Source: Polynucleobacter sp. HIN5
GTDB lineage: Bacteria; Pseudomonadota; Gammaproteobacteria; Burkholderiales; Burkholderiaceae
DNA: 64,000 bases
Reading direction: 5' to 3'
NCBI RefSeq assembly: GCF_030297555.1
Contig: NZ_AP028136.1
Location: 1,116,001 to 1,180,000, forward strand
Shown: positions 1-49,975 of the stretch, piece by piece
Position numbering within the stretch: position 1 is the stretch's first letter
Layout: each line of letters opens with the position of its first letter
The notes under the pieces: model-generated
Database searches by the model: none
What the model was told of the DNA's origin: nothing
What the model saw: only the letters and a program-made list of their open reading frames with translations
Program-made: the position numbers and the translations under genes

Positions 1-441
1 GGTAACTTCATCGAAACTACTCCAGAGACCCCCTACTTCCAAATTGGAGAATCTAAATACGGCAAACCAATCTTAGACCGAGTTATCCGCTTTAATACGC
101 CTTTAAACCTAGCAACTAAATGCGTCTTGATATCCATGGACTCAACCATCAAAAGTAATATTTCGGTTGGTCTTCCTCTTGATCTTTTGGTTTATGAAAA
201 TAACTCCTTTGCGCTTGAGAAGCTAATCACTATTGATGAAGATAACCCTTACTTTGAAATGATGCGGGGTATTTGGGGTGAAAAGCTTAAAGAGGTTGCC
301 CTGAGTATTCCAGAGCCGAGTTGGAATGGATCTAAAAAAAGTATTTCGATTGTGTCAACATCAAAAAAACTAGGTCCAGTGCCTATTCAAACACCCAAAA
401 CAAAGCGAATCAAGGCAAGCAAATCGATTAAGTCCAAATAA
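1..441 (+). CDS. Anbu-type proteasome-like protease, 3' part only
   Basis: This is the C-terminal 146 residues of a predicted proteasome-family peptidase (COG3484, Anbu), cut by the window edge. It matches residues 133-278 of the complete gene at 22011-22847 almost base for base. The only protein difference I see is Lys instead of Glu in the Ser-Lys-Lys/Glu-Ser stretch near the C-terminus. The catalytic N-terminal part lies outside the window, so I cannot tell whether this copy is complete. It ends 20 bp before a tRNA-Arg fragment, as the other copy does, so a second Anbu cassette (or its tail) precedes the array seen here. Confidence 0.8.
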   Translation, partial: GNFIETTPETPYFQIGESKYGKPILDRVIRFNTPLNLATKCVLISMDSTIKSNISVGLPLDLLVYENNSFALEKLITIDEDNPYFEMMRGIWGEKLKEVALSIPEPSWNGSKKSISIVSTSKKLGPVPIQTPKTKRIKASKSIKSK

Positions 442-461
442 TAAGATTTACCATCCAGAAT

Positions 462-654
462 TGGCCTGCCCAGCAGGAGTCGAACCTGCGACCTACGGCT
501 TAGAAGGGCTGGCTGATCTGCTTTAGACAATATCAGACACTGACATACAGTGGGTAGGCTTGAGGTGTAGGCCAAAACAAGGGTCGTCGTGGCGTTGGGT
601 GGGGCCAGATATTGGGTTTGTGGTGTCGGCAGGCGTTTGTCGGGAAAACCGACA
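462..654. repeat. tRNA-Arg att repeat 1 with 147-bp arm
   Basis: Positions 462-507 are identical to the 3' portion of the tRNA-Arg(UCU) gene at 49899-49975, from the CCA end through the T arm to the anticodon stem and loop. Identity stops inside the anticodon region. Positions 508-654 form a conserved 147-bp arm that ends in the inverted repeat TGTCGGGAAAACCGACA (638-654). The 5' half of the tRNA is missing, so this is an attachment-site remnant and not a working tRNA. The same layout recurs at 14558, 18419 and 22868. Confidence 0.88.
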
Positions 655-721
655 TTTTTGAGTACTCGTGAAAAAGAATCGTAAGGTAGCTAAAGAATGT
701 TCAAAATTTCAACTAAGAGAA

Positions 722-1621
722 CTAAAAATGATTGGCTTTTTCTATTACTAATTGAATAAAGTTTTTCATTGCAATGGTTTGATGAGCTCCCTGACGCCAA
801 TAAATTGTGGCGTCACGAGATAAGTGATTTCCCTCGATTTCTAGGCTAACTAAATCTTGCTCGCCATAACAAGCTACTGGGCTTCCAATAACGATTACTT
901 TGCCCGTTTTTGCGATTTGAATTAAATCGTCCATTGATGATACTTCGAGCCTGGCATTAAGAGATACCCCATCACTTTTACATTGAAAATCAATTTTTTG
1001 TCTCATTAAAAAATTTTTATTGAGTAAGGCCAACTCCTCTTCCTCAATCATCTTTAAATTAATTTTGTTTGGAAATTTCCTTAGCTTTATTTTTTTACCA
1101 ATGAGCGAAAAATGCTCTCTAAATAAAAACTGATGTTGCAAATTTTGTGTCTTATAGTCATCTGGCAAAATTCCAATATCAATTCCGCCTTCATTAAGGT
1201 CGTCTATTAAGTTTTTGGCTGACCCCGCCTTAAGAGTTATTTTTATTTCAGGATTTGTTATAAACAAATCAATACATGCAGGTATTACAAGGGCTTTTAA
1301 GTAGGTATTGGTTGCACCAATATTTATTACTCCAGCAGCCTTATTTGAGTTGTTTCTCAATGTCAGAAGTACTTCATCTAGATTGCCAACAATTGGCTCG
1401 ACTTGACTTAGTAGATCTTTGCCAAAGGACGTTAAAACTGATTTTCTTCCTATCTTTTCAAAAATATTCTGCCCAAGAACATTAGTTAAATCCCTCATCT
1501 GCTGTGACAACGCAGATTGGGAAAGATTGAGAATCTCAGCTGCTTTGACATAACCCGTTGATTTAGCAAGCACAATAAAACTGCGAAGAAGACGAAGATC
1601 TATATGGTTATTTATAAGCAT
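722..1621 (-). CDS. LysR-family transcriptional regulator (copy 1)
   Basis: A 299-residue LysR-type regulator. The N-terminal winged helix-turn-helix spans about residues 8-65 (LRSFIVLAKSTGYVKAAEIL, then SQSALSQQM), followed by the usual substrate-binding domain. It is transcribed away from the Bug receptor and aconitase X genes, with an AT-rich 88-bp gap to the receptor start that should hold both promoters, so it probably controls that operon in response to the substrate. A second copy lies at 14818-15717. The two proteins differ at about a dozen positions, mostly in the N-terminal 180 residues, while the C-terminal third is identical. The inducer is not known. Confidence 0.9.
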   Translation of the reverse strand: MLINNHIDLRLLRSFIVLAKSTGYVKAAEILNLSQSALSQQMRDLTNVLGQNIFEKIGRKSVLTSFGKDLLSQVEPIVGNLDEVLLTLRNNSNKAAGVINIGATNTYLKALVIPACIDLFITNPEIKITLKAGSAKNLIDDLNEGGIDIGILPDDYKTQNLQHQFLFREHFSLIGKKIKLRKFPNKINLKMIEEEELALLNKNFLMRQKIDFQCKSDGVSLNARLEVSSMDDLIQIAKTGKVIVIGSPVACYGEQDLVSLEIEGNHLSRDATIYWRQGAHQTIAMKNFIQLVIEKANHF

Positions 1622-1709
1622 TTCTTATATTAAATATTAAAAAATATTAATTTACATTATATTTTTTTACGATTACATTGGTTCTGTTCTCTTAACTAAG
1701 GGGGTGGCC

Positions 1710-2678
1710 ATGAAAAATTTTTCAAAATTAATACTTTCCTTCGTCTTGTCTTGGATTTGTGGATTAGCAATCGCTCAGAATTACCCAAACAAACCTATCA
1801 AACTAATTGTTCCTTTCCCGCCTGGGGGTCCAACGGATATTGTTGCCAGACCTTTAGCGCAGATGTTGGGTGAGTCTATGAAGCAATCAATTATTGTCGA
1901 GAATAAAGGCGGTGCTGGTGGCTCTGTTGCAGCTGATTTTGTAGCTAAATCACCACCTGATGGATATACCATCATGGTCGGAACCGTGGGGACTCATGCA
2001 ATTAACGGGAGCCTGTATCGACAACTTCCCTACGATATGACCAAAGACTTCACGCCGATTGCATTGGTAGCAAGCGCCCCTTTAGTGATAGCGGTTCCAG
2101 CTAACAGCAATATTAAGACCCTAGCAGACCTTATTAAAGAAGCTAAGGCAAAACCTGACTTTATCGCATTTGGAACTGCCGGCAATGGAACCCCTGGTCA
2201 TCTGACAGGTGCTTTATTTGAAACAGCCACCAAAACAAAGCTTAAGCATATTCCCTATAAAGGTAGCGCACCTGCAGTCACTGATTTACTTGGTGGGCAA
2301 ATTCCGCTCATGTTTGACCCCATCCAGTCGGTCCTTCCCCACATCCAATCAGGTAAGCTAATAGCATTAGCAGTCACGAGCAAAACTCGCTCACCACTTT
2401 TGCCTAATGTACCTACAGTTGCTGAATCTGGGTATCCTAATTTTGAATCCACAGCATGGTGGGCAGTATTTGGTCCAGCAAAATTACCTGAAAATGTAAC
2501 AAATACATTAACTACTCAAGTTCAGAAAATTGCCTCGTCTGCAGCATACAAAGAAAAACTTGGCAACGTAGGTGTTCAACCCAATACAAACTTTAAAGAA
2601 TCACTTAGCAATTTCCAAACCAGAGAAATCGCGAAGTGGGCAATTGCTGTACGTGATTCTGGGGCATCACTCGATTAA
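1710..2678 (+). CDS. Bug/TctC-family periplasmic substrate-binding protein (copy 1)
   Basis: A tripartite tricarboxylate receptor (Bug) family protein of 322 residues. It has a Sec signal peptide (MKNFSKLILSFVLSW..., cleavage near AIAQ). The mature start YPNKPIKLIVPFPPGG is typical of the family, and the Gly-rich loop and the PYKG motif follow. I chose the ATG at 1710 over the GTG at 1704 because the AAGGGGG ribosome site at 1698-1704 is well spaced for it. No TctA/TctB partner is in this unit, so the receptor may use the transporter of another locus or act in sensing. It lies 9 bp before the aconitase X genes, so a link with that substrate is inferred. Confidence 0.88.
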   Translation: MKNFSKLILSFVLSWICGLAIAQNYPNKPIKLIVPFPPGGPTDIVARPLAQMLGESMKQSIIVENKGGAGGSVAADFVAKSPPDGYTIMVGTVGTHAINGSLYRQLPYDMTKDFTPIALVASAPLVIAVPANSNIKTLADLIKEAKAKPDFIAFGTAGNGTPGHLTGALFETATKTKLKHIPYKGSAPAVTDLLGGQIPLMFDPIQSVLPHIQSGKLIALAVTSKTRSPLLPNVPTVAESGYPNFESTAWWAVFGPAKLPENVTNTLTTQVQKIASSAAYKEKLGNVGVQPNTNFKESLSNFQTREIAKWAIAVRDSGASLD

Positions 2679-2687
2679 AGAAAAATT

Positions 2688-3920
2688 ATGAAACTTAATG
2701 CTGAAGAAAAAGCCATGCTTGCTGGCGAATTGGGGCCAGTTCGCAAGATCGCCATCGAACATCAAATTAAAGTTGGCGAATTTTTTGGCGCCGAAGATCT
2801 TGTACCGGTCTCACAAGCACACATCATGGCTGACACGGAAAGCCTTGGGGAAGCGGGTGTTGCTTGGCTTGAGATGTTAGCCAAACACTCTTCAAAAGAG
2901 CGGGTAGTACGTATTCCTACGATTACCGATCCTCGGGGCACAGACTTTAATAAAGCCAAGCAATTGGGTCAAACCGAAACGATGCTTTCTTTAGAGCGCC
3001 GGGCGATTGCGGCTTTCGTCAAAATGGGCATCTCTATGACTGATACCTGCATCAACTACCAAACCATCATGGCTCCAGTTTTTGGTGAACATGTCGCTTT
3101 TGGTGACACTGGTGTTGTGATCTACTCCAATAGTATCTGTGGGGCCCGCTCGAATTTTGAGGGCGGCCCATCTGCCCTATCGGCCGGCTTAACCGGTCGA
3201 ACACCGCGCTATGGGTATCACTTAGATACACACCGACAGCCAACCCACCGTTTTCGAGTTTCTTGGACACCCACTTCACTCAATGAATGGGGCGCCTTGG
3301 GCGGGCTCATCGGACGCAAATCTGGAAATTATTGGTCTGTCCCCGTGATTGAGGGTATTGAAGGTCACCCTGGGTCAGATTCACTCAAGCATTTCGGTGC
3401 AGCAATGGCTAGCTTTGGATCATCCGCCCTATTTCATATTTTAGGGATTACTCCTGAAGCAATCCATGCGAGGGATTTAAAGTTTGATCATTTACCTGTG
3501 ATCGACGTTACACAAGCGGATGTCATGGCTTTACAAAAATCCTATCGTGTAAGCGATGAAATTGACGTTGTTGTGTTCTCAGCGCCCCAACTGAGTCTTT
3601 TGGAGATGAAATCGGTTGCCGAACTCTGCGCTGGTAAGAAATTTAGGAAACCCTTACTAGCGGTTACCAGCCCCCAAGTAAAGCCAGACTCGGATCGAAT
3701 GGGATATACCGAACTCATTGAATCGGCGGGAGGCACAGTCTTTGCTGGCATGTGTTTTTACCAGTCCTATGCCAGAGAAATTGCTGAGGCGAATGGCTGG
3801 AAACGCTTAGCAACTAATAGCGCCAAGATGGTCAACATCTTAGGTGGCTATGGATACACACCGATCTTAGCCTCGATGGAGGACTGCGTCCGCGCAGCTG
3901 AAACTGGGAGTCTCGCATGA
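2688..3920 (+). CDS. Aconitase X catalytic subunit (copy 1)
   Basis: A 410-residue AcnX large subunit (former DUF521). It has the conserved cysteines of the family in DTCINY and NSICGARSNFEGG, probable ligands of an Fe-S cluster, and the Gly-rich GALGGLIGRKSG segment. It overlaps the small-subunit gene by 4 bp (ATGA). Known two-subunit AcnX enzymes are dehydratases, for example of cis-3-hydroxy-L-proline in bacteria and of mevalonate 5-phosphate in archaea. The LysR and Bug neighbours fit a catabolic role on an imported hydroxy acid or hydroxyproline, but the substrate is inference. The copy at 16784 differs by Gln/Glu in the AKQLG segment and Thr/Ser in the GGTVF segment. Confidence 0.88.
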   Translation: MKLNAEEKAMLAGELGPVRKIAIEHQIKVGEFFGAEDLVPVSQAHIMADTESLGEAGVAWLEMLAKHSSKERVVRIPTITDPRGTDFNKAKQLGQTETMLSLERRAIAAFVKMGISMTDTCINYQTIMAPVFGEHVAFGDTGVVIYSNSICGARSNFEGGPSALSAGLTGRTPRYGYHLDTHRQPTHRFRVSWTPTSLNEWGALGGLIGRKSGNYWSVPVIEGIEGHPGSDSLKHFGAAMASFGSSALFHILGITPEAIHARDLKFDHLPVIDVTQADVMALQKSYRVSDEIDVVVFSAPQLSLLEMKSVAELCAGKKFRKPLLAVTSPQVKPDSDRMGYTELIESAGGTVFAGMCFYQSYAREIAEANGWKRLATNSAKMVNILGGYGYTPILASMEDCVRAAETGSLA

Positions 3921-4321
3921 ATAAAGTATTTAAAGCAAAGCATGCTCAAGGTGATGTCGTAGAAGGAGTTTGCCTGACAGCGAATGACGGCTTTTCAGCT
4001 CGCTATGACCTAGACCGAATCAATGGGGTTTTTTCAAGACCAACTCATAAATTATTTGGCGAGACCTACAACAATAAAATCTTGGTTTTAGATACAGCCA
4101 AAGGTGGCGTGGCTAGTGCCTGGATGATCTATGAAATGAAAAAACGGGGGCTTTGTCCTTCTGCCATCATTTTTAATACCGTCAATCCAATCTTGGCTCA
4201 AGGAGCTGCTCATGGTGGCATCGCCATGTTAAGTGGCTTTGATTGCGATATCACTTCAGCAATACCAAGTGGCTCAAAACTAAGGATTGATCCCAAAAAC
4301 CAAACCGTAGAAATTCTGTAA
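3917..4321 (+). CDS. Aconitase X swivel-domain small subunit (copy 1)
   Basis: A 134-residue DUF126/AcnX small subunit. It contains the family segments DRINGVFSRPTHKLFGETY and LDTAKGGVASAWMIYEM and the closing IPSGSKLRIDP. It forms the swivelling lid of the AcnX active site and is translationally coupled to the large subunit (overlap at 3917-3920). Its stop codon ends one base before the next tRNA-Arg fragment at 4323, so the att repeat directly follows the operon. The copy at 18013-18417 encodes the same protein. Confidence 0.88.
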   Translation: MNKVFKAKHAQGDVVEGVCLTANDGFSARYDLDRINGVFSRPTHKLFGETYNNKILVLDTAKGGVASAWMIYEMKKRGLCPSAIIFNTVNPILAQGAAHGGIAMLSGFDCDITSAIPSGSKLRIDPKNQTVEIL

Positions 4322-4322: not shown

Positions 4323-4350
4323 TGGCCTGCCCAGCAGGAGTCGAACCTGC
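4323..4350. repeat. tRNA-Arg att repeat 2, truncated
   Basis: 28 bp identical to the extreme 3' end and T arm of tRNA-Arg(UCU). The match breaks off at CCTGC, and the 147-bp arm and its inverted repeat are absent. It sits at the boundary between the aconitase X unit and the TctCBA unit. It is probably a partial deletion of a full repeat. Positions 4351-4588 show no convincing gene. Confidence 0.8.
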
Positions 4351-4588
4351 TACTTAAGACGTTTACGGAATCTCAAGCGTGGGCTCGGATAGTTGTCTCA
4401 GTACGCAATCGATGGTAAATTATTTGCCAGTAGGCAGGCTAGATGTATGATTTATGAATATTCTCAGATGTTAATAGCATTTGTTTCAATCAAATACGAT
4501 GAACTAAATGTCATTAAATTTATATTTTTTACCATCTATAAAATACTTTCCCCGATTACATCAAAAAAATCCTTTGAGGAGGCTGTGA

Positions 4589-5563
4589 ATGTTCATCACA
4601 AAAAGAGATTTTGTTAAATATAGTGCTGCAGCATTTGGAACTACCTTCCTTCCCACTTGGGCGCAAGCTAAACCACTATTTGAAATCATCAATATGTTTG
4701 TCCCAGCCGCCCCAGGCGGTGGCTGGGACAGCACTGCTCGGGCCCTAGAGCGAGCTGCTAAGGCTGGGGGACTAATAGGTAATATGCAATTTGAAAATGT
4801 GGGTGGTGCAGGAGGTATGGTAGGTCTGCCTAGGTTCATAAACCAGCGAAAAGGGCAAGGCAATAGCTTGATGGTTTGCGGGTCAGTAATGATCGGGGCG
4901 GCCATTGCCAACAAAAGCTCCCTCACTATTCGCGATGTAACACCGGTCGCACGACTAACTGAAGAAGCTTGCGTCATTGTTGTGCCGTCCTCTGGAAAAA
5001 TAAAAACTTGGAATGAGTTAATTTCTGCGCTCAAAAATAACCCTAAAGCAGTTTCCGTTGCTGGGGGTAGCGCAGGTGGAACCGACCACCTGGTTCTTGG
5101 ACTCATGATCAAGGCCCTTGGTCGCAACCCAAAAGAAGGTGCCTATGTAGCTTACCCAGGCGGCGGACCTGCTAATGCGGCAATTATTGGTGGTCAGGTT
5201 ACAGCGGGCATCTCAGGGTACTCTGAGTTTGAAGAGCAAATTAAGGCTGGCCGCATGATTCCTCTTGCTACCTCCGGAAGTACTCGAATTCCTGGATTGA
5301 ATGTTCCTACTATGATGGAGCTTGGACTTAATGTGGTTCTGGCTAATTGGAGAGGTGTCTTTGCACCACCTGGCATCAATGAGTCCCAACGTAATTCGCT
5401 CATAAATTTGATAACACTTACGGTGGCTACTAGCGCATGGAAAAATGAGCTGTCGACGCGAAAGTGGTCAGATGCCTTTTTAACCGAACAACCTTTTGTG
5501 CGTGAACTAAATTCGGATATTGAGCGCACAACAGCGATCATGAAAGATCTGGGGCTCGCATGA
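4589..5563 (+). CDS. tctC: Tripartite tricarboxylate transporter receptor (TctC-like)
   Basis: A 324-residue Bug/TctC periplasmic receptor. Its signal peptide (MFITKRDFVKYSAAAFG...) resembles a Tat signal but has Lys-Arg instead of Arg-Arg, so the export route is uncertain. The mature start FVPAAPGGGWDSTARALE and the later AYPGGGPANAAIIGG are typical of the TctC subgroup. A GAGGAGG ribosome site precedes the ATG. It overlaps tctB by 4 bp, and tctA follows, so this is a complete tctCBA operon. Members bind citrate, aromatic acids or other carboxylates; the ligand here cannot be read from sequence. Confidence 0.9.
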   Translation: MFITKRDFVKYSAAAFGTTFLPTWAQAKPLFEIINMFVPAAPGGGWDSTARALERAAKAGGLIGNMQFENVGGAGGMVGLPRFINQRKGQGNSLMVCGSVMIGAAIANKSSLTIRDVTPVARLTEEACVIVVPSSGKIKTWNELISALKNNPKAVSVAGGSAGGTDHLVLGLMIKALGRNPKEGAYVAYPGGGPANAAIIGGQVTAGISGYSEFEEQIKAGRMIPLATSGSTRIPGLNVPTMMELGLNVVLANWRGVFAPPGINESQRNSLINLITLTVATSAWKNELSTRKWSDAFLTEQPFVRELNSDIERTTAIMKDLGLA

Positions 5564-6021
5564 CACCAACCCATGTCAGCCTGCTACTGGGATTGGTATG
5601 TCTGGTGGCTGGCTGGCAGGTCATCCGTATTCCCAAGTCTGCGATTGAAATGGCGGTGGGGCCCTCTCTTATGCCAGCTTTGATCGTAGCCGGCCTTTCA
5701 ATAGTAAGCCTACTTTATGGCGTTAGCGCCTATCGGGGGCTACAGGCTGATGATGCCTCAGATCTAGAGCGGGTCGCCCTCCCCGGCAGTACATCACGAT
5801 TTTTATTTCTATTAGGCGCCGCTATTATTTTTATTGGACTTGTAAACCTAGTCGGATTTATTCCCAGCGCGACTCTTTGCGGGGTCTCCATTGCTCGCGC
5901 CTTTGAGGCACGAATTAACTTAAAGTCTTTTTTAATTTGTGGAGCAATTGTTATTTTCTTTTGGTTCCTATTTTCAAAAATTCTCGGAATTGGTCTCGGT
6001 CCGGCTCTCACGCTGCCCTAA
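5560..6021 (+). CDS. tctB: Tripartite tricarboxylate transporter small membrane subunit TctB
   Basis: A 153-residue protein with four predicted membrane helices, the size and layout of TctB. The first helix is [17 protein letters not shown], and the last pair lies around [19 protein letters not shown] and [19 protein letters not shown]. It overlaps tctC by 4 bp and lies 7 bp before tctA, so the three are co-translated. TctB helps the large subunit TctA move the carboxylate handed over by TctC, driven by an ion gradient. Confidence 0.88.
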
Positions 6022-6028
6022 GATCAAT

Positions 6029-7531
6029 ATGGAAGCCTTTGAAGCGCTTATTGGGGGATTTAGCACTGCCCTAACACCCACCACTCTCATGTGGGGCTTC
6101 ATCGGATGCTTTGTCGGCACTATGGTAGGTGTCCTGCCAGGGCTTGGACCTGCCCTAACTATTGCGCTTTTGTTACCACTAACCTATCACATTCCTGCTA
6201 CTAGCATGTTCGTGATGTTTGCGGGGATTTATTATGGCGCTGCTTATGGTGGGTCCACTACCTCAATTCTCTTAAATACGCCAGGTGAAACTTCTTCTTT
6301 AGTAACGGCACTAGAAGGTAATAAGATGGCCCGCAATGGCCGAGCAGGTCAGGCTCTTGCTACAGCAGCCATAGGTAGCTTTGTAGCTGGAACTATTGGT
6401 ATCCTAGCCCTTACGTTTATTGCCCCCTGGGTGGTCGAGATCGCGCTTGCTTTTGGGCCGGCTGAATATTTCAGTTTAATGGTTCTCTCATTGGTAGCGG
6501 TTTCATCAGTACTGGGAAACTCTCTACTTCGCGGCCTAATTTCACTTGGACTCGGTCTTTTAATTGGTATGGTCGGTATTGATCTACAGACTGGGCAAAT
6601 GCGATTCACTTTCGGCCATCCTCAATTATTAGATGGTATTGAAATTACGGTCGCAGCAGTTGGACTGTTTGCAGTAGGTGAGGCACTTTATCTAGCATGG
6701 CAAGGTCGAAATAATCGACCTGGAAGTCTTACAAAACTTTCAGGAACTCTTAGAATGAGCAAACAAGACTGGGCTCGATCTTGGAAGCCCTGGATTCGTG
6801 GGGCACTTTTTGGCTTTCCAATCGGTGCTATGCCCGCTGGTGGGGCCGAAATCCCCACTCTACTGTCATACTTTACAGAAAAGAAACTCTCTAAACATCC
6901 CGAAGAATTTGGTCATGGCGCCATTGAGGGCGTTGCGGGCCCAGAGGCAGCCAATAACGCCTCGGCTGCCGGAGTGCTTATGCCATTACTTACATTAGGA
7001 ATTCCGACATCGGCCACAGCTGCCGTCATGCTGTCAGCTTTTGAAAGCTACGGTATTCAAACGGGCCCACAATTATTTTCAACTAATGGCAGCTTAGTGT
7101 GGACTCTAATTGCAAGTTTGTATATCGGTAATTTTATTTTGTTAGTACTAAATCTTCCACTCGTAGGGCTCTGGGTGAAATTACTAAGAATTCCCCCTCC
7201 GTGGCTTTATACAGGAATCATTATCGTTTCGATAATTGGTGTCTATGGAGCTGGGCAGTCACTATTTAATATCGGGCTTTTGTTTGTTTTTGGTATAGCC
7301 GGCTTCATCATGCGTCGGTTCGACTTTCCTGCTGCACCAGTTTTAGTTGGACTGATCTTATCACCACTTTTGGAGCAATCCATGCGGCAAGCGCTAACCA
7401 TCAGTCAAGGTCAGTGGAGTACATTTGTCACTCGGCCGATATCGACCATATTACTGGCCATCGCATTAATACTTTTACTTTCTCAGCCTATCTATAAGCA
7501 ATGGAAAAACCGTCAAACAACGAAGAAATAG
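6029..7531 (+). CDS. tctA: Tripartite tricarboxylate transporter large membrane subunit TctA
   Basis: A 500-residue TctA permease with about 10-12 hydrophobic helices. Family signatures include [19 protein letters not shown] near the N-terminus and the second Gly/Pro-rich loop [20 protein letters not shown], followed by [16 protein letters not shown] placed the start at the ATG 6029, just after tctB, because an upstream extension from 5939 would lie inside tctB. It is the translocation channel of the TTT system. The operon is followed by 76 bp and then the 7608 arm of an att site. Confidence 0.92.
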
Positions 7532-7607: not shown

Positions 7608-7798
7608 TGTCAGGTTTCCCGACAAATTCCATCGCCCTCCAACAGATGCCAATAGTCACGGGGATCCCACCCGGTGACTCAGCCCCACTTCCACGGGTCT
7701 AATGGGTCGCCAATCTGGGCCACATTCGCTTCAATCAACCTCAGTTGAAACCGCCATGATCTGGCCTGCCCAGCAGGAGTCGAACCTGCGACCTACGG
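7608..7798. repeat. Second-type att arm plus tRNA-Arg fragment (repeat 3)
   Basis: Positions 7608-7624 are a near copy of the inverted repeat (TGTCAGGTTTCCCGACA). The following stretch resembles the one upstream of the intact tRNA-Arg at 49743-49898, sharing AAATTCCAT, GATCCCACCCGGT and CAGCCCCAC. It runs into a tRNA-Arg 3' fragment at 7762-7798. The 147-bp arm does not follow. This is the only internal copy of the tRNA-proximal arm I found, so it looks like the fossil right end of an earlier integration. Confidence 0.82.
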
Positions 7799-8269: not shown

Positions 8270-8290
8270 AAGTTATCCATATGAAACTGT

Positions 8291-8319
8291 TAAAAAAGCC
8301 CCCCATAACTGGGGGGGCA
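8291..8319 (-). terminator. Rho-independent terminator after the Pal-like gene
   Basis: On the minus strand a stem of GCCCCCC and GGGGGGC with a short loop is followed by a run of T (GGGGGGCTTTTTTA). It begins 6 bp downstream of the stop codon at 8325, so it should end transcription of the minus-strand genes 8325-10048. Confidence 0.85.
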
Positions 8320-8324
8320 AAATA

Positions 8325-38913: not shown

Positions 38914-38932
38914 TTTTATGAAAGGATTTTTT

Positions 38933-42584: not shown

Positions 42585-43242
42585 GATCGTTGAGTCGATA
42601 CCCAAGGCCACGGACTGTCTCGATCAAACCTTCGGGTAGTTTTTTTCGCAAACGCGCGATAAAGACCTCAATCGTATTGGAGTCCTTGTCTTCATCATAG
42701 GCGTAAAGATGTTCACTCAGGGTTGTTTTATCAATCACTTTATTGGGGTGATGCATTAGGTAACTTAGCAAGCGCAACTCATAACTCGTTAAATTGATGG
42801 TATTGCCGTCAAGACTCACTCGATTACTAGCAAGATCTAAAGTCAATCCTTGGATACTAATTACTGAAGAAGAGTGACCGGTTGAGCGACGAATAACGCT
42901 TCGCACCCTTGCTAAAAGCTCCTCCATATGAAATGGCTTCGTGATGTAGTCATCCGCTCCAGAATCAATCCCAGCTACTTTCTCGCTCCAGTTATCCCGT
43001 GCAGTCAAAATAATGACTGGAAATGTTTTCTGAGCAGCTCGCCATCCCTTTAAGACCGAAATCCCATCAAGCTTGGGAAGGCCCAAGTCCAAAATGGCCG
43101 CATCAATCGCCTCTTCTTTTCCAAAATGAAGTGCATCCTCCCCATTACTGGCTATATCGACCACATAACCTTGCTCTTGGAGCGCTAGTTTTAATTGCTC
43201 ACATAGAGTTGGTTCATCCTCAACCACGAGTAAACGCATCAA
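42577..43242 (-). CDS. OmpR-family response regulator
   Basis: A 221-residue response regulator. The receiver domain (1-115) has its acidic pair in VVEDEP, the phosphoacceptor Asp in AAILDLGLPKLDG and the Lys in YITKPFHMEELLARV. The C-terminal winged helix ends in VEVFIARLRKKLPE and TVRGLGYRL. It overlaps the kinase gene by 8 bp and lies 8 bp after the PepSY gene, so the three form one minus-strand operon divergent from the cytochrome genes. Confidence 0.92.
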   Translation of the reverse strand: MMRLLVVEDEPTLCEQLKLALQEQGYVVDIASNGEDALHFGKEEAIDAAILDLGLPKLDGISVLKGWRAAQKTFPVIILTARDNWSEKVAGIDSGADDYITKPFHMEELLARVRSVIRRSTGHSSSVISIQGLTLDLASNRVSLDGNTINLTSYELRLLSYLMHHPNKVIDKTTLSEHLYAYDEDKDSNTIEVFIARLRKKLPEGLIETVRGLGYRLNDHA

Positions 43243-43250
43243 TTGGCCTT

Positions 43251-43556
43251 TTAGTTTTTCTTGGTCTTTTGCTTTAAAACCTGACCGGTTTTAGCGTCTA
43301 TCTCTAACTTCACGATTGAACCTGTCGAAGTCAGTTGCTTAATTTCATAAACCCAGACACCCTTCTCCTGATCAAGCTCCACTTCGAGCACTTGACCGGG
43401 ATAATCTTTAGAAACCTTTTGTAATATTTCTTGCAGAGGAAGGATCTGACCAGATTGAACAGCTTTTCTAGCTCGCTCATGATCTGAATCGGCAAAACTA
43501 GTCATCGGCATCACAATGAGTGCTAATACCAGAAGAAACTGTGGGAGTTTTCGCAT
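43251..43556 (-). CDS. PepSY-domain periplasmic protein
   Basis: A 101-residue exported protein. A signal peptide (MRKLPQFLLVLALIVMPMTS) precedes one PepSY domain that ends in GSIVKLEIDAKTGQVLKQ. The ATG at 43556 gives the shorter and more normal signal peptide. PepSY proteins often sit beside PhoPQ-like systems and modulate the sensor. It is first in the operon with the response regulator and kinase and is divergent from the cytochrome genes. Confidence 0.85.
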   Translation of the reverse strand: MRKLPQFLLVLALIVMPMTSFADSDHERARKAVQSGQILPLQEILQKVSKDYPGQVLEVELDQEKGVWVYEIKQLTSTGSIVKLEIDAKTGQVLKQKTKKN

Positions 43557-43659
43557 GGGGAAATTGTAAATCGGCAAGATGAATGGAATCTGAATAATGC
43601 CTTCAGCCTGGGTCTAGGAACATTATTTAATACTGGGGTCCAAACAATAAAGGACTCCA

Positions 43660-44058
43660 ATGAAATACTCCTTCAGTCTTATCTTGATTATTGGCATAGG
43701 CATGGTAAATGCCGCCGTTGCCGGTGATACCAGCCCCACTGCACAGCTGAAATACTGGACAGATCAAACCGGTGCGGAGGCAAACCCGATTGCTGGAAAG
43801 CTTTTTTTTACCCAAACGCATGGCAAAGAATGGTCTTGTGCCTCATGCCATGGCAATTCACCTCTTAACACCGGCAAACATGCAAGTACGAATAAAGCTA
43901 TTCCACCCTTAGCACCTAGCAGTAATCCAGAAGCATTTACGGAAACCACAAAGATTGAAAAGTGGTTTCGGCGTAACTGCAATGATGTCCTTGCTAGGGA
44001 ATGCACTCCTTTAGAGAAAGCCAACGTGCTGGCTTATTTGATTTCGTTAACCAAATAA
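43660..44058 (+). CDS. SHP-type monoheme cytochrome c (DUF1924)
   Basis: A 132-residue exported cytochrome c of the DUF1924/SHP group. After the signal peptide (MKYSFSLILIIGIGMVNAAV) the heme site CASCHG lies near residue 67. SHP proteins have an Asn heme ligand and bind oxygen, NO or other small molecules when reduced. The gene is followed by diheme cytochrome and cytochrome b561 genes in the same order as the shp/dhc/cytb clusters described from Rhodobacter. AAAGGA precedes the ATG. Confidence 0.88.
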   Translation: MKYSFSLILIIGIGMVNAAVAGDTSPTAQLKYWTDQTGAEANPIAGKLFFTQTHGKEWSCASCHGNSPLNTGKHASTNKAIPPLAPSSNPEAFTETTKIEKWFRRNCNDVLARECTPLEKANVLAYLISLTK

Positions 44059-44107
44059 GTGGATGAGTGAAATGGCTCAAAAAAATAAACACCATCAGGA
44101 GATCAAC

Positions 44108-44590
44108 ATGAAAGAGTTTTTTGGATTAATTTTATTGACCTTGGTTCTATTGGCGGTGATTGCTTTGACCAGCAAGCATGCCAATGCCGGCAGCAAGAGT
44201 ATGTCGCCGGTACAGTCTCTGCCCATATATCAAACTGAATGCGGCTCGTGCCACTTAGCCTACCCTCCCGGATTCTTACCAAAAACCTCATGGGAGCAAT
44301 TGATGTCCACTCTTTCCAAACACTATGGGACCGATGCCTCAATCGATGCCAAATCCAGCCATCAAATCAATCAGTGGCTATCCCAGTATGGAGGAAGCTA
44401 TAAGCGAGTCAAAGAATCGCCACCTGAGAATCGCATTACTAAATCGGTATGGTTTGAACGTAAACACCGCAAAGTGAAATCCAGCGACTTTACGAAGCCA
44501 TCCGTGAAAAGCCCTGCCAATTGTGCAGCCTGCCATCAGCGGGCAGAGCAAGGTCAATTTGACGATGATGATGTTCGGATCCCAGAATAA
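44108..44590 (+). CDS. Diheme cytochrome c (DHC)
   Basis: A 160-residue exported diheme cytochrome. The signal peptide or membrane anchor is MKEFFGLILLTLVLLAVIAL. The heme sites are CGSCH near residue 51 and CAACH near 145, as in diheme cytochrome DHC. I chose the ATG at 44108 because of the AGGAG just upstream, over the in-frame ATG at 44063. DHC is the proposed electron donor to SHP. Confidence 0.9.
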   Translation: MKEFFGLILLTLVLLAVIALTSKHANAGSKSMSPVQSLPIYQTECGSCHLAYPPGFLPKTSWEQLMSTLSKHYGTDASIDAKSSHQINQWLSQYGGSYKRVKESPPENRITKSVWFERKHRKVKSSDFTKPSVKSPANCAACHQRAEQGQFDDDDVRIPE

Positions 44591-44599
44591 GGCCATTCG

Positions 44600-45109
44600 A
44601 TGAAAACACTCAAGCAAATTCTTCACCTAGCAGGCGCCATCACGTTTATAGGGGCATACCTTACCGCCGATAGTGAATCTTGGCGATTGATTCATGTGTA
44701 TTTAGGTTATGGTTTTGGGATTATCTTTTCCCTTCGACTCTTGATTGGCCTAGTTCCAAGAACATCGATGGCATTTCAAACAATTTGGATGCGTGCCAAT
44801 CTATTTAAAACAATTGTGCAAGATCTCAAGGATCTAAAACTTGAGCGTCTTTTCAAATGGCAAATTTGGTATGGATCCGGTATGGGGATTTTGGTATTTC
44901 TCATGTACTTTTTATCCATCCCGCTGGTTTTGTTCGGAATCGTGATTTTTGAGGAATTCGGTGGAAAATGGTTTATTAAATTTGCTGAAAATACCCACGA
45001 ATTTATTGGTGAGTTTTATCTTTCGATTGTTTTGATTCACTTGGTACTTGTTTTTGGAAAATATCTTTTGTTAAAAACAAAAAATCAATTCCTAAGGCAT
45101 GCTAATTAA
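44600..45109 (+). CDS. Cytochrome b561-type membrane subunit
   Basis: A 169-residue integral membrane protein with four helices and conserved helix His residues (LHLAGAITFIGAY, RLIHVYLGYGFG, NTHEFIGEFYLS, VLIHLVLVFGKYLL) that can bind two b hemes. It lies 9 bp after the diheme cytochrome gene. It should pass electrons from the quinone pool to the diheme cytochrome and on to SHP, completing a small periplasmic redox chain. Confidence 0.88.
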   Translation: MKTLKQILHLAGAITFIGAYLTADSESWRLIHVYLGYGFGIIFSLRLLIGLVPRTSMAFQTIWMRANLFKTIVQDLKDLKLERLFKWQIWYGSGMGILVFLMYFLSIPLVLFGIVIFEEFGGKWFIKFAENTHEFIGEFYLSIVLIHLVLVFGKYLLLKTKNQFLRHAN

Positions 45110-45180
45110 ATAGGCTGCCTTTTTAGGGTTAATCTATCAGGAAACTGGTGTGGGTTAGGTCAACAAAATTTAAGGCAAGG

Positions 45181-45215
45181 GCCTGAAGTTTGTCGTTTAA
45201 AACGACACTTCAGGC
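45181..45215. repeat. Long palindrome around a TGTCG-N7-CGACA motif
   Basis: GCCTGAAG and CTTCAGGC flank the 17-bp core TGTCGTTTAAAACGACA (45191-45207), giving a nearly perfect 35-bp palindrome. It lies between the convergent cytochrome b561 and methyltransferase genes, so it may work as a bidirectional hairpin terminator even without a T run. Its core belongs to the att-type palindrome class. Confidence 0.6.
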
Positions 45216-45242
45216 ATTCTCATTCGGTTTTATTGTCAGATA

Positions 45243-46088
45243 TTAATTTTTTGGCTTTTCAAACACCCCCAATATGGATGTCCCCCACGGAAAGGAAAGG
45301 TGATGACCTAATGGAGTTTCAGCATAGAACAGAGCCTTGAGCGCATTGTTGATGATAGGATGAGGCGTCTTGTACTCCTCTTTATAGAGCTTTGCCATTT
45401 GCTCCGCATTAAGTTCTTTGGGACGAGTTTTACGGGATAGCCAGTACAGCGGACTAAGCAAGAACATAAAGTAGCGCGCATCTTTAAGGATTAATCCACT
45501 ATTCTTTGCCAGCTCCTGATACTTTGGTTTGTCGTAGCGACGTACGTGCTTTACGAACTCATCGTTATAGGACCAAAAGAAGTCAAGCGCTGGGGTTGCC
45601 ACAAATAGCTTACCACCCGGCTTCACAGCTTTAGCTGCCTCCCGCATCACGGTGACATCATCGGGACAATGCTCAATTACATCTAATAAATAAGCCGTAT
45701 CCCACTGCTCCTGCATTTGTAAATCCATGAGGTCAACGTGATACAGGTCCACATCCTCATCTAATACCCCTTTGGCATTGAGGAGTGCTACCCGGGAGGA
45801 ATCCGCCAGCGCCAAATCGGTTAATCGATCGGGAATGGTTTGAGTAAGGTATTGCACCCAGCCGCCACATCCCCCACCCAAATCAATTGCTGAGAATTTT
45901 TCTGATGCTTGATGACGCTTTAATGACTCTAATAAAAAACGATGGCGCCCTAGATACCAAAAATGCTTGGATTGCATTTCAAATAAATGAGCAAACTGAT
46001 CTTCAACAAATTCATCATTTCGATGCGTGACTGGTTTTTTTGGCACATAAATGCCATCGCTATCTTGGTAATACATAAACATCCCCAT
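45243..46088 (-). CDS. Class I SAM-dependent methyltransferase
   Basis: A 281-residue methyltransferase. Motif I is AIDLGGGCGGWVQYL (near residue 70), followed by motif II around VDLYHVDLMDL, then YLLDVIEHCPDD and VKPGGKLFVATPA. This pattern is typical of small-molecule or glycolipid O-methyltransferases. The C-terminal part holds a hydrophobic stretch (FMFLLSPLYWLS) that may touch the membrane. It has no operon partner. The substrate is unknown. Confidence 0.82.
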   Translation of the reverse strand: MGMFMYYQDSDGIYVPKKPVTHRNDEFVEDQFAHLFEMQSKHFWYLGRHRFLLESLKRHQASEKFSAIDLGGGCGGWVQYLTQTIPDRLTDLALADSSRVALLNAKGVLDEDVDLYHVDLMDLQMQEQWDTAYLLDVIEHCPDDVTVMREAAKAVKPGGKLFVATPALDFFWSYNDEFVKHVRRYDKPKYQELAKNSGLILKDARYFMFLLSPLYWLSRKTRPKELNAEQMAKLYKEEYKTPHPIINNALKALFYAETPLGHHLSFPWGTSILGVFEKPKN

Positions 46089-46236
46089 ACCGATTTCGTA
46101 GCCGATTGGCTACAGCACTTGGTTTCGTGAGAAACCGCCCAGAATGGAGGTGAACAACCCGCTAAGGGTTTAAAGCAATGAAATGTATTTTTTAGAGGTT
46201 GCCACCAACCATTGGCTTACCTGAAGCGGTAAGCGC

Positions 46237-46635
46237 TTAGATGAAGTGGCGTTGGGGTGGCGCTAAAGCCGGGGGTGGAAACTTGGGGTTAAGAAATGAA
46301 AACGGGACCAATAAGGTCTTGGCAAACGAAACGCGCCGAATAAAGGGTCGATCTTTTAAGACTAAAAGGACGACTGCAACAAAAGCAACCGCAAAAGTGG
46401 TGTCGAGAAAATGCTTACGCGCATCTGGAACAGTCACTGCATATGAATCCGGGGTTGGCTCAGGACTGCCATCATCTAAGAGTCGCGCATTATCAAATGC
46501 GCTCAAACCCGACATATGAAATCCAGAATCGTTATCTCCAGCGATATGCGCATGTAAGAATGGAGACATGCACTTGAGGAAAACTCCCAAGAACAAAAAA
46601 ACCGCCAAAGATGAGCGGGTGAATTTAAAGCGCAT
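46237..46635 (-). CDS. Small membrane protein, function unknown
   Basis: A 132-residue protein with an N-terminal hydrophobic segment (SSLAVFLFLGVFLKCMSPFL) followed by HAHIAGDNDSGFH, and a second helix (TTFAVAFVAVVLLVL). The Pro-rich basic C-terminus ends PPPALAPPQRHFI. Resemblance in layout to the small His-rich protein at 53389 suggests a metal-linked role, but the similarity is weak. It is divergent from the riboswitch-controlled exporter. Confidence 0.55.
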   Translation of the reverse strand: MRFKFTRSSLAVFLFLGVFLKCMSPFLHAHIAGDNDSGFHMSGLSAFDNARLLDDGSPEPTPDSYAVTVPDARKHFLDTTFAVAFVAVVLLVLKDRPFIRRVSFAKTLLVPFSFLNPKFPPPALAPPQRHFI

Positions 46636-46749
46636 GATCGTATTCTAAGGGCAACTTGAATATTTTGATAACCATCATCCATGCTGGGCCTTTATCGCAT
46701 GCAAGCTAAGGATCAGTTTTATGAGGGACCAATTCGTTTGTTACAATTG

Positions 46750-46925
46750 TGACGTCACTAGGGAGTAGCCGCCCTTCTTTATAGAAGATGGCTTACATCA
46801 ACATACTTGGGCTTTTAGCTTATGGTGTAAGCGGTTTAGATACTTGGCAAGACTTTTGACTACAAACACTTACTTAGGCTGTGGGTGTCTTGTAGTCATT
46901 TGTTTATGACACAGCCTAGGGGACG
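46750..46925 (+). promoter_or_regulatory. yybP-ykoY manganese riboswitch
   Basis: The leader of the TMEM165/GDT1-family gene holds the two conserved strands of the yybP-ykoY motif: AGGGAGTAGCCGCCC near 46759 and CATCAACATACTTGGG near 46796. A downstream helix follows (GTGTAAGC region and the closing strand AGCCTAGGGG near 46912). This class senses Mn2+ and turns on manganese exporters. The distance to the start codon (46931) leaves room for control of translation initiation. Confidence 0.82.
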
Positions 46926-46930
46926 TTCAT

Positions 46931-47503
46931 ATGGATTCACTCTTAATTTCCACTGGCGTGGTGGCACTTGCTGAAATGGGCGATAAAACTCAGCTTTTGG
47001 CTTTTATCTTAGCCGCTCGCTTTAAAAAACCTGTTCCTATTATTTTGGGGATTTTGGCCGCTACCACTATTAATCATGGATTAGCCGGTGCGTTGGGCGC
47101 TTGGATTACCTCCATGGTGAACCCCGATGTGTTGCGGTGGATTTTAGGCGCCTCCTTTATTGGCATGGCGATTTGGACTCTAAAGCCAGACAAAATTGAG
47201 GAGGAGGAAACTCAGATTGCCAAACATCTTGGGGTCTTTGGCGCCACCTTTATCACCTTCTTTTTTGCAGAAATGGGCGACAAAACTCAATTGGCAACCA
47301 TCGCACTTGCGGCTCACTATGCCGCTCCATTAGCAGTTGTGGTTGGCACAACCTTGGGCATGATGATTGCCGATGTGCCTGCGGTGTTTGTCGGCAATAA
47401 ATTTGCCGCAAAGATCCCAATGAAATTGGTTCACTCCATCGCTGCTGGAATATTTGCCGTAATGGGTGTCTTAACGCTTTTTGGTATCGATAAGCTCTTT
47501 TAA
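46931..47503 (+). CDS. TMEM165/GDT1-family manganese/calcium exporter
   Basis: A 190-residue UPF0016/GDT1 membrane protein with six helices and the two family repeats ALAEMGDKTQLLAF (near residue 14) and FAEMGDKTQLATIA (near residue 117). The acidic residues of EMGDKT bind the ion. Bacterial relatives behind the same riboswitch export Mn2+, so Mn2+ efflux is the probable role. It is followed by a strong terminator at 47611. Confidence 0.92.
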   Translation: MDSLLISTGVVALAEMGDKTQLLAFILAARFKKPVPIILGILAATTINHGLAGALGAWITSMVNPDVLRWILGASFIGMAIWTLKPDKIEEEETQIAKHLGVFGATFITFFFAEMGDKTQLATIALAAHYAAPLAVVVGTTLGMMIADVPAVFVGNKFAAKIPMKLVHSIAAGIFAVMGVLTLFGIDKLF

Positions 47504-47749: not shown

Positions 47750-48607
47750 TTAAATAGAATCTCTTTTGTTAAAAACGATAGATAAATCCCTGATTGATGC
47801 CTGAATAATGATCCAAGAAATTTTTACTGAATCCAGGTCTGGATACGTATTTGATGTTATTTGAACATTTGGATGAATCAAATTTCTAAAATCCCTTAGT
47901 GCATGAGAAAACTTAGACATACTTGTTCTAATCCAACCCAACTTGTGAGCAACATCGATCATTTCGGATAATGTCCAGCCAGAGAATGGCTTCACCTTGC
48001 CAGTCTTTGAGTCTTTAGGAGAAGATTGACACCTGGCGACATCCTCTGGATAGCGTTGGAAAACTCCCAACAACAAACCTTCAAGAAAGCTTCCCATCAA
48101 GATTGTGGAGGCGAGGTGAGTTTGCATCTCCACGCATTTCTTAATCTCCTCTAGACGCCCTTCCAGAATCTTATGCAAAGAACTATCAAACTTTAAAAAA
48201 TCTAAATTTGGAATTTCTAAAAACGCTTCATTGCCCAGCTCTTGATCTAAATTAAAATTAACTTCAATCATCTCAAAGACTGGGCTTGTCCCTTTCAAAA
48301 CAACCTTGAAACCTTCTACATAAACAACTGCATTCAAGGAAGTCAGTGCTTCTTTAACTTTTTGTTTGTCCCCTCCATACTCATAAGGAGAGACAAATCG
48401 CTTTAGTATTTTTGCCAACTCCTGCTTGCTGCAATTTCTTAAACATTCTGCAACCCAAAATCGCCTTGTTGAGCCATCGTGAACAAATCTACCCACATCC
48501 GCCCCTGCAAAAAATTTCGTTAATCTATCTCCAGATCTATAAACAGGAGCACCTGGCAAATCGCCACATATTAGCTCTGCAAGATTTATATAAGTGTTAT
48601 CGTCCAC
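47750..48607 (-). CDS. HEPN-like protein paired with a reverse transcriptase
   Basis: A 285-residue protein. The C-terminal third is helical and contains RDFRNLIHP (R238, H245), which fits the RX4-6H motif of HEPN RNases. The N-terminal 110 residues (LTKFFAGADV, TRRFWVAECLRNCS, KILKRFVSPYEYGG) recall the N-terminal regions of AbiJ-type abortive infection proteins; this is a weak recollection. It is 37 bp downstream of the reverse transcriptase on the same strand. A toxin or effector in an antiphage system is the natural inference. Confidence 0.6.
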   Translation of the reverse strand: MDDNTYINLAELICGDLPGAPVYRSGDRLTKFFAGADVGRFVHDGSTRRFWVAECLRNCSKQELAKILKRFVSPYEYGGDKQKVKEALTSLNAVVYVEGFKVVLKGTSPVFEMIEVNFNLDQELGNEAFLEIPNLDFLKFDSSLHKILEGRLEEIKKCVEMQTHLASTILMGSFLEGLLLGVFQRYPEDVARCQSSPKDSKTGKVKPFSGWTLSEMIDVAHKLGWIRTSMSKFSHALRDFRNLIHPNVQITSNTYPDLDSVKISWIIIQASIRDLSIVFNKRDSI

Positions 48608-48644
48608 TAAATTCTTTCTTGATTATTAGTCTGACAAAAAATTG

Positions 48645-49412
48645 CTAGGGGAATTGATTTAGCTGCATAGGATTTACTGATCTAACGTATTTTCTGATAC
48701 CACTCTTTTTGTTGGCATTAATGGTCCCCATGTACTCATACAGCAGCTTTTGAAGTCTTGCATTTGTTATCTCATAATGCGCCCTTTTAAGGTCGATATT
48801 AAAAGCAGTTACAGAAGGGGCGCATATTACCTCTTTAGATGAATTTGACAACCAGTGAGATCTCAGCATTTGATCTTTCACCTCTATAGTTAAACGTCTC
48901 AATAAAGCATTGTCATTTGACGATATCAATATATCGTCCATATACACAGACAAAGAGATCCCCGCAATTTTCGATAGTCGAAAAAGGGTTTTGCCTAAAT
49001 TCGACCTATCTAAGCAGACGGATGCAAGAATTGGCGACTGAACAAACCCAAAGGGCAACATAAATTGGATGGGGTAGCTGTTTGGTATCTTTACGGCTGA
49101 ATTCAATGCAATTTCCCAAGACTTTTTATAGCCCAAAAATTCCTTGAGTGATCTTGCTATCCTTGATCTAGAAATGGAGCCGAAAAAATTGTCTATATCA
49201 AGCCTTGAAAAGAATTGATGATTGGCATGTAAGCGTATTGCCTTAACATGTCCTCCTGGCTTTAGATGATAAAAATACTCTGGTATATCCCACTTAGATT
49301 TAATCAGCTTTGAAACTTGCCTCCCAAATACCTTTGAAGATTGGGTCGGAACAAAGACCCATTTACCCGATTTCAGAGGAAACCTACTTTTCCACCTAGT
49401 ATCTATTTGCAT
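48645..49412 (-). CDS. Reverse transcriptase (retron/defence-type)
   Basis: A 255-residue reverse transcriptase. The catalytic acids lie in RLDIDNFFGSI (D72, D74) and VYMDDILIS (D159, D160), and the nucleotide-binding LPFGFVQSPILAS is at residues 119-131. It lacks the maturase and endonuclease domains of group II intron enzymes, and no intron structure is evident. It is short for retron or DRT enzymes, with little thumb domain after residue 215. A HEPN-like gene follows and a foldable region precedes it. I cannot place it in a known class from sequence alone. Confidence 0.85.
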   Translation of the reverse strand: MQIDTRWKSRFPLKSGKWVFVPTQSSKVFGRQVSKLIKSKWDIPEYFYHLKPGGHVKAIRLHANHQFFSRLDIDNFFGSISRSRIARSLKEFLGYKKSWEIALNSAVKIPNSYPIQFMLPFGFVQSPILASVCLDRSNLGKTLFRLSKIAGISLSVYMDDILISSNDNALLRRLTIEVKDQMLRSHWLSNSSKEVICAPSVTAFNIDLKRAHYEITNARLQKLLYEYMGTINANKKSGIRKYVRSVNPMQLNQFP

Positions 49413-49442
49413 TTACTGGTGGTAAAGAATAGTTAAAGAACA

Positions 49443-49512
49443 CGCCGTAAAGGTCAAGCAGCAGTTTTACCTTTTGTAAAAAAGGAAACAGCCCCTTGAG
49501 GCATTTACGGAC
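49443..49512 (-). ncRNA. Foldable region upstream of the reverse transcriptase
   Basis: Read on the minus strand, CCGTAAA and TTTACGG (49504-49510 and 49445-49451) enclose TCAAG/CTTGA and a hairpin CCTTTT/AAAAGG, giving three nested stems in about 70 nt. It ends 31 bp before the reverse transcriptase start. The position and shape fit a retron msr/msd or a DRT non-coding RNA, but no branching G or defined class features could be proven. Confidence 0.4.
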
Positions 49513-49742
49513 TAAGCTTAAATTAGAATTTTTTTTCATAATTTAATCTCCATCTTGCGCCTGACATGCTTAGCGTGAACGCCGTGTTTATAACCAAACA
49601 GATATGAGTAATAAATTACACACACTAGTGATCACTAAGTGACATCAAGATGAAATGCTAGGGATTAACCTACCGTCAGACAACTTCATTTAATACCAAA
49701 TCAAAGGATTTCGCAAGGTCGCATGTGATTGATCGCTTCTGA

Positions 49743-49898
49743 TGTCGGGTTTCCCGACAAATTCCATGATCCACCAGTAGATGCCAATAACCACACGGAT
49801 CCCACCCGGTTCTACAGCCCCACCGCCATCGGTCTCATGGGTGACCAATCTCTCCCACAATCGATTCAATGGATCCAGTAAAAATTTCCATCCAGATT
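49743..49898. repeat. tRNA-proximal att arm with inverted repeat
   Basis: It begins with a perfect TGTCGGGTTTCCCGACA (49743-49759) and runs to the CCA end of the intact tRNA-Arg. It shares several blocks with 7608-7761 (AAATTCCAT, GATGCCAATA, GATCCCACCCGGT, CAGCCCCAC). It is the right arm of the att site created by the last integration at the tRNA. Confidence 0.8.
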
Positions 49899-49975
49899 TG
49901 GCCTGCCCAGCAGGAGTCGAACCTGCGACCTACGGCTTAGAAGGCCGTTGCTCTATCCAGCTGAGCTATGGGCAG
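49899..49975 (-). tRNA. tRNA-Arg(UCU), intact
   Basis: A 77-nt cloverleaf on the minus strand with encoded CCA. Acceptor stem CTGCCCA/TGGGCAG, D arm GCTC/GAGC, anticodon stem ACGGC/GCCGT with loop CTTCTAA (anticodon TCT), T arm GCAGG/CCTGC with TTCGACT. It reads AGA codons. Its 3' portion is the repeated core of the array at 462-33190, so it is the integration target. It is the only complete copy in the window. Confidence 0.96.

Follow-up and report, generated by a model that had tools for sequence, protein, structure and literature searches.

Additive islands, in which gene cassettes collect at a tRNA gene together with partial tRNA repeats, have been described as fGI1 of Alteromonas (PMC4119200), as fGI1 of Actinomarinales, also at a tRNA (PMC7771536), and as fGI-2 of Methylopumilus at tRNA-Lys (PMC10872708), as far as the accessible text of these reports goes. 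In this study, we analysed a window of 64,000 nucleotides from Polynucleobacter sp. HIN5 (genome positions 1116001-1180000 of the single-contig, 1.88-Mb genome G000; a G000 array coordinate minus 36000 gives the window coordinate), in which operons alternate with copies of the tRNA-Arg(UCU) 3' end beside one intact tRNA gene. This locus is probably an additive tRNA-Arg(UCU) island of attachment-site (att) cassettes, in which elements with recombinases would mobilise the passengers in trans. With the Alteromonas, Actinomarinales and Methylopumilus islands it shares a conserved tRNA target, strain-specific cassettes and partial tRNA direct repeats beside the units. The tandem tRNA-anchored cassette layout, pointed out in an initial annotation of this DNA, is already in print for these three groups (PMC4119200, PMC7771536, PMC10872708). 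The locus differs from those islands, as the accessible parts of the papers describe them, in its conserved arm, its one-armed versus two-armed units and the position pattern of its recombinases, and also in the tRNAs and taxa involved.

Other described systems resemble the locus in part, again within the accessible portions of the sources. Like tandems of integrative and conjugative, integrative and mobilizable, and cis-mobilizable elements (ICE, IME and CIME; PMC5704250), it stacks site-specifically at a tRNA 3' end and includes passengers without a recombinase. However, a CIME keeps both attL and attR of a decayed element (PMC5704250), whereas in most units here a single arm was detected, with a biased reference panel; the units carry operons, and some recur across species. 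Chromosomal integrons and clusters of attC sites lacking integron integrases (CALINs; PMC11389934, PMC4119200) likewise combine a cargo array beside a recombinase, some recombinase-free arrays and toxin-antitoxin-type units. Unlike integrons, the locus has a small recombinase of XerC/D type and no integron integrase, its att site lies on a tRNA core, no conserved hairpin was found, and its units hold one to many genes. Tycheposons (mentioned in PMC10872708 and PMC11389934) are similarly tRNA-anchored, with a tyrosine recombinase and nutrient cargo; by description alone they differ in that the units here are mostly without a recombinase. Among the papers listed by our search of the open-access literature, none describes this array in Polynucleobacter, and the one paper that linked the genus with tRNA-Arg deals with Methylophilaceae. 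Shared arms, one-armed passengers, the recombinase-proximal layout, recombinase-free arrays and arms at other tRNAs were not met in the accessible text of that literature and appear to be new here.

The single intact tRNA-Arg(TCT) of the window lies at 49899..49975 on the minus strand (ARAGORN) and is taken as the attachment site. BLAST with this gene returned five exact copies of its 46-bp 3' end (462..507, 10992..11037, 14558..14603, 18419..18464 and 22868..22913) and three shorter cores, namely a partial one of 37 bp at 7762..7798, a decayed one at 4323..4356 with 28 bp exact, and a truncated one of 15 bp at 33176..33190, all on the minus strand. A further core near 12842 is almost gone: it starts at 12815, keeps 18 of 38 bases and is followed by sequence homologous to other sites. 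The repeated tRNA 3' ends beside one intact tRNA, as first annotated, are thus real, five being exact and four partial or decayed. Since the best tRNA match outside the array in the whole genome is just 81% identical (G000:C1:24449-24522), the 46-mers are not a product of chance. Further cores or arms lie left of the window at genome positions 1111043 and 1111991/1112031, with weak arm matches at 1100879 and 1102559; therefore, the array extends to the left and is larger than first described. The close spacing of stop codons and cores that had been pointed out holds for the distances in G000 (1 bp at 4323, 14558 and 18419; 20 bp at 462 and 22868; 6 bp at 10992). As a general rule it was rejected, because genes of either orientation occur in the examined relatives, whose stop codons do not generally abut the core.

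The intact cores have their sequence in common as far as CTTAGAAG, beyond which arm sequence takes over; this would place the crossover in the anticodon loop. The T-arm half is nearer to the host's own tRNA version than to the other version in 47 of 49 cores, with two ties; two complete tRNA copies and half of a split core were excluded from this count. The left core of G016 has a different T-stem that is still pairable by eye, as if a tRNA end had been displaced by insertion. Cores are also better preserved nearer the tRNA (permutation p 0.031 for the eight arrays that vary, p 0.008 for seven without G000). Taken together, the host-matched cores, the G016 T-stem and the preservation gradient suggest that new units enter at the tRNA and displace older ones outward.

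A left arm of about 150 bp follows six of the nine window cores. By arm comparison, these arms lie at 508..656 (type alpha, plus strand), 11038..11169 (plus), 12863-13008, 14604 to 14752, 18465 to 18612 and 22914..23063 (plus), and non-duplicate copies are about 70-77% identical when the tRNA part is excluded; no left arm was detected behind the cores at 4323 and 7762. The right arm is an inverted relative of the distal half of the left arm and was recognised by this homology on the minus strand at 7608..7761 and, adjoining the tRNA, at 49743..49898, the two being 79% identical with the core included. An exact 17-bp palindrome, TGTCGGGAAAACCGACA, closes the arm in four of the six left arms, and a palindrome of this kind is also present in both right arms, in exact form in the one beside the tRNA. 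We read left and right arms as putative att-site arms around the tRNA core. Structured RNA or a hairpin was considered as another explanation of the arm and rejected: an RNAalifold consensus of 30 arms contains 0 pairs (folding as in integron attC sites was looked for by this consensus, without a dedicated attC finder), and no arm matched Rfam at gathering scores, where the window yielded two tRNAs and one Mn riboswitch only.

A sequence-only arm model (R1) was built on 30 sites minus their tRNA part and applied at E<=0.001 with stricter filters, so that misses are possible. It recognised nine copies in G000 and matched 94 of the 186 congeneric genomes; in 45 there were two or more matches. 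Some matches are weak or stand at other tRNAs. Among 300 genomes of the order (134 genera), the two that matched are both Polynucleobacter; the arm was not found in the 133 other genera of that sample, and at least two more congeneric genomes there were also without a match. Related arms were observed behind other tRNA-like cores, which by eye are Lys-like (L142, L144, L145, L151, L152), decayed Lys-like (L143) or Cys-like (L146). The distribution agrees with arms to which a recombinase binds and not with a trait peculiar to tRNA-Arg, and related elements seem to have changed their target tRNA.

Units are repeated and swapped within G000. Cassette B (genome 1112013-1116461) recurs as B2 (window 18419-22867) at 99.6% identity, and cassette C (462-4322) as C2 (14558-18418) at 98.0%. 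A third match, of 91.0% over 1391 bp, joins cassette G (12815-14557) to the unit that ends at genome 1111043. B precedes C on the left, whereas C2 precedes B2 on the right, which one block duplication does not explain; together with the differing divergence (91.0, 98.0 and 99.6%), this led us to reject a simple segmental duplication. Five pairs of units were aligned core to core (B/B2, C/C2, G007_4038/G019_18461, G018_5672/G019_7559 and G007_4775/G011_10658). Scored in 30-bp windows, identity in these pairs falls to about 30-65% to the left of the core, one B/B2 window keeping 73%. To the right it is lost past the core or, more gradually, past the arms if both neighbours are armed. The unit G007_4775/G011_10658 stands in different neighbourhoods in its two species and extends core to core; it is common from its first base to its last, the size difference lying inside. 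Two small core-to-core units are shared by species in different neighbourhoods, one of 737/739 bp in G007 and G019 (92.8% identical) and one of 834 bp in G018 and G019 (86.8%), and both encode HEPN/nucleotidyltransferase pairs of toxin-antitoxin type. HEPN/nucleotidyltransferase pairs of 0.7-0.8 kb that sit flush between cores (L046:4082-4725, L052:7597-8318) recall the toxin-antitoxin cassettes of integrons.

The initial annotation had made its cassette idea depend on single units that differ and are shuffled between related genomes, with breakpoints at the repeats. This was borne out in related species, not strains, as the relatives comprise one genome per species and the comparison is at species level. 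In these relatives, the same tRNA carries different units, and partial tRNA repeats stand at the unit edges, as is characteristic of an additive tRNA island. In G002, tRNA-Arg occurs once, and the flank behind this copy resembles the left array ends of G004 and G007 to within about 100-140 bp of the core; the locus is therefore taken as an empty site. The nearest relatives of G000 by the small recombinase are G160 and G061 (99 and 98%). Their flanks are 86-88% identical to those of G000, and the cargo at that tRNA is largely different. The kinase/cytochrome/GDT1 block of G000 is found elsewhere in the G160 array (93.6%), and the COQ7/alternative-oxidase block (88%) directly follows core and arm in G061 and is fused to other genes in G000. 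Another mode of integration is seen in the G031 array 22532-31627 and the G018 array 6506-14842, which are bounded by two complete tRNA-Arg genes and contain a larger integrase (frames of 339-356 aa).

The window encodes two tyrosine recombinases. The small one (35100-35723, plus strand, 207 aa) is XerC/D-like and consists of the catalytic domain (Pfam, NCBIfam, PHROGs); the large one (39906-41129, minus strand, 407 aa) is integrase-like, with a Pfam score of 24.5 bits just below the cut-off of 27.1. No integron integrase was recognised, as the NCBIfam model gave these two proteins 39.6 and 22.6 bits against a cut-off of 265. We compiled a table of 51 units in 15 arrays, which were chosen for several cores or close recombinases and thus carry a selection bias. 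The small recombinase occurs in 10 units, each of which also has the large one, and eight of the 10 adjoin the tRNA (the exceptions are in G007 and G160). The statement that most units have no recombinase is confirmed by the remaining 41 of 51. Arms were called in the units by BLAST at E<=1e-3, some matches being weak, and right arms against a biased reference panel of 15 hand-picked ends, mostly ends of recombinase units and of alpha or beta type. A left arm starts 8 of 10 recombinase units and 32 of 41 units without a recombinase, and a right arm ends 9 of 10 versus 10 of 41.

Among the 186 genomes (small recombinase scored at E<=1e-30), 57 have arm and small recombinase, 37 the arm only, 38 the recombinase only and 54 neither, a tally blurred by draft assemblies, elements at other tRNAs and non-cognate recombinases. 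Ten genomes have two or more arm matches yet no close small recombinase. In G063 (99% complete), five units carry arms, and the sole two Phage_integrase matches resemble XerC and XerD by score and frame length; G104 has one such match more, located elsewhere. A viral origin found no support: neither the small recombinase nor the module protein p265 has a confirmed relative in the IMG/VR viral contigs, and recombinases in phage records (n=95) are all below 60% identity, as are those in plasmid records (n=1271). Relaxase or conjugation genes were absent by Pfam from 50 proteins between 722 and 49412, a set without small open reading frames (ORFs) and copy C2.

The units open with a core, the copied 3' part of the tRNA, and in the majority the left arm comes next; the units with the recombinase pair mostly end in the inverted right arm, so that their circular form would read right arm - core - left arm. 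This order resembles attP of phage type. The small tyrosine recombinase, perhaps together with the large one, would bind the arms and exchange strands within the anticodon loop, and repeated site-specific recombination, probably in this 7-base loop, would build the island. At each insertion, the 3' half of the chromosomal tRNA would be left as the far-side fragment while the copy carried by the element restores the tRNA, and units would pile up with the youngest beside it. Units with core and arm but no recombinase may be passengers mobilised in trans as long as a recombinase-bearing element is present; on loss of that element the array would persist, like an integron cassette cluster without its integrase. 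Trans movement by one shared enzyme, as the initial annotation supposed, would be consistent with arms that are common to units with and without a recombinase and with the arrays in recombinase-free genomes.

Several observations weigh against this interpretation. The moving units of 737 and 834 bp have a core and no detectable arm. In the cargo common to G004/G014, G004/G031, G012/G031, G031/G063 and other pairs, the edges fall within units, so that other recombination is also at work. The right-arm contrast of 9/10 versus 10/41 is biased by the hand-picked panel, which may miss other (gamma-type) right arms, and a number of arm matches, left as well as right, are weak (E around 1e-4). In the recombinase unit of G000, the left core is truncated and a left arm was not detected, so that the unit's own edge is not matchable to the cassettes. 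Across the 186 genomes, arms and small recombinase are only loosely tied, and host-matched cores may partly reflect two tRNA versions that follow host clades. Movement of recombinase-less units in trans is what we infer from the sequences as the likeliest reading.

The main rival is accretion of the CIME type, in which recombinase-less units are decayed elements that integrated with a recombinase of their own and later lost it; their mobility would today be confined to cis, alongside a complete neighbour, or be absent. Such tandems are explained in print by decayed elements that accrete at tRNA ends (PMC5704250); both arms are kept on some units without the small recombinase (e.g., G160 56522-58443), and G019_8393 retains a remnant of the large recombinase (44%). 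Against this, neither recombinase finds a match at E 1e-6 in 40 of the 41 units that lack the pair. Cores stand on both sides of every unit by construction; judged with the biased panel, 24 of the 32 arm-bearing units without a recombinase lack a detected right arm, 10 of all 41 having one. Moreover, small units that lie flush between cores in different species fit repeated individual movement better than independent decay. We consider accretion possible but less likely than movement in trans. RecA-dependent homologous recombination between tRNA fragments or arms could also shuffle units, the recombinase mattering for first insertions only. The 46-bp cores and the arms would offer the homology, several shared blocks have their edges inside units, and the cargo common to G004 and G014 (89.6%) is preceded by arms of different types. 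Yet the arms adjoining the five exact window cores differ by about 23-30% between non-duplicate copies, the far-side sequences of the cores are unrelated, and the switch from shared tRNA to arm sits at the anticodon loop, all of which makes this explanation improbable. Finally, the encoded CCA marks the exact end of the repeats, and a reverse transcriptase (48645-49412) lies close to the tRNA, which would suit retro-copying primed by the tRNA 3' end. This protein resembles retron reverse transcriptases, RVT_1 matches occur in 2 of 23 genomes searched (the second on a contig other than that of the array), and arrays are present in genomes without a match; the reverse transcriptase was rejected as the mover, and retro-copying is scarcely credible.

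By analogy, the island looks like a gene-collecting site that is somewhat integron-like but built on a tRNA. The initial annotation had likened the layout to an integron: unit swapping, recombinase-less units and the cargo stand, and the likeness serves as an analogy, but it goes no further, given an integron integrase score below the cut-off, no conserved fold detected in the arm and no general rule of flush stops. It is tempting to speculate on a genus-wide, integron-like capture on tRNA, in which one-armed att cassettes (core, ~150-bp arm and operon) depend on a separate recombinase pair, persist free of recombinases beside toxin-antitoxin units, and are retargeted to other tRNAs by exchange of the core with the arm kept; this wider proposal is possible but tentative. 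If trans mobilisation is true, the tRNA would play the role that attI has in integrons, and recombinase-free arrays would be mobilisable gene stores. The anatomy of core, left arm, right arm and recombinase pair offers a testable account of how freshwater bacteria with small genomes may gain and lose operons for nutrients and respiration unit by unit, and the arm model allows units to be found without knowledge of their cargo.

The nutrient, respiratory and metabolite genes that the initial annotation saw in the cargo of G000 were borne out by Pfam, which is the basis of the following assignments. Positions 1..461 (plus strand) are the right end of cassette B, whose remainder lies left of the window from genome 1112013, with the 3' end of a proteasome-subunit-like gene (B/B2 identity; Pfam on the intact copy). 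Cassette C (722..4321) carries a LysR regulator (minus), TctC, aconitase X and the AcnX swivel domain, and unit D (4589..7531, plus) TctC, TctB and TctA. Unit E (7892..10985) encodes DUF202, an OmpA-family protein and two unassigned ORFs on the minus strand and a CBS-domain protein on the plus strand. Cassette F (11187..12781, plus) holds TauE over two ORFs and an EamA transporter; the TauE/SafE exporter (11187-11927), split in this way, is probably a decayed gene within the cassette. Behind the degenerate core and left arm at 12815..13008 (core/arm comparison), cassette G (13216..14556, plus) encodes a putative Na+/H+ antiporter. Cassette C2 occupies 14604..18417 (98.0% to C by alignment), and cassette B2 (18465..22847, plus; alignment and Pfam) contains CP-ATP-grasp, Alpha-E, transglutaminase-like and proteasome-like genes. 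The cargo of unit H1 (23129..32705) comprises thioredoxin, DsbD-like, polyketide-cyclase-like and ATP-grasp proteins, an FGE-sulfatase/DinB protein (EgtB-like), a histidine methyltransferase (EgtD-like), a glycosyltransferase, RNase T/GIY-YIG, COQ7, DUF2076 and an alternative oxidase, the Egt names being our reading of the domains.

The recombinase-bearing module (33580..41129, both strands; Pfam, NCBIfam, PHROGs) is partly common to relatives. Apart from the two recombinases, it encodes DUF6641 (33580-34170, minus), p177 (34370-34903), a 350-aa ORF (35715-36767, minus), p265 (36916-37713, plus) and a clamp-loader-like AAA protein (37773-38474). p265 has no Pfam match and 58 homologues, none functionally named; its AlphaFold model, of moderate confidence (predicted local distance difference test, pLDDT, 69.4), had 212 PDB matches at E<=10, none of which reached E<=0.001. 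A 17-bp arm palindrome at 41198..41214 is interpreted as what is left of a lost cassette edge. Towards the tRNA, a 285-aa ORF and the retron-type reverse transcriptase form cargo on the minus strand (47750..49412); the 285-aa partner has no match in Pfam, PHROGs or PADLOC, and the two are a possible retron or defence pair beside the tRNA. Between palindrome and pair lies cassette-like cargo (41229..47503) with a histidine kinase, a response regulator, DUF1924, a dihaem cytochrome c, cytochrome b561, a methyltransferase and GDT1. A yybP-ykoY manganese riboswitch (46743-46917, plus strand) directly precedes the GDT1-family antiporter gene, as in a cassette with its own metal control.

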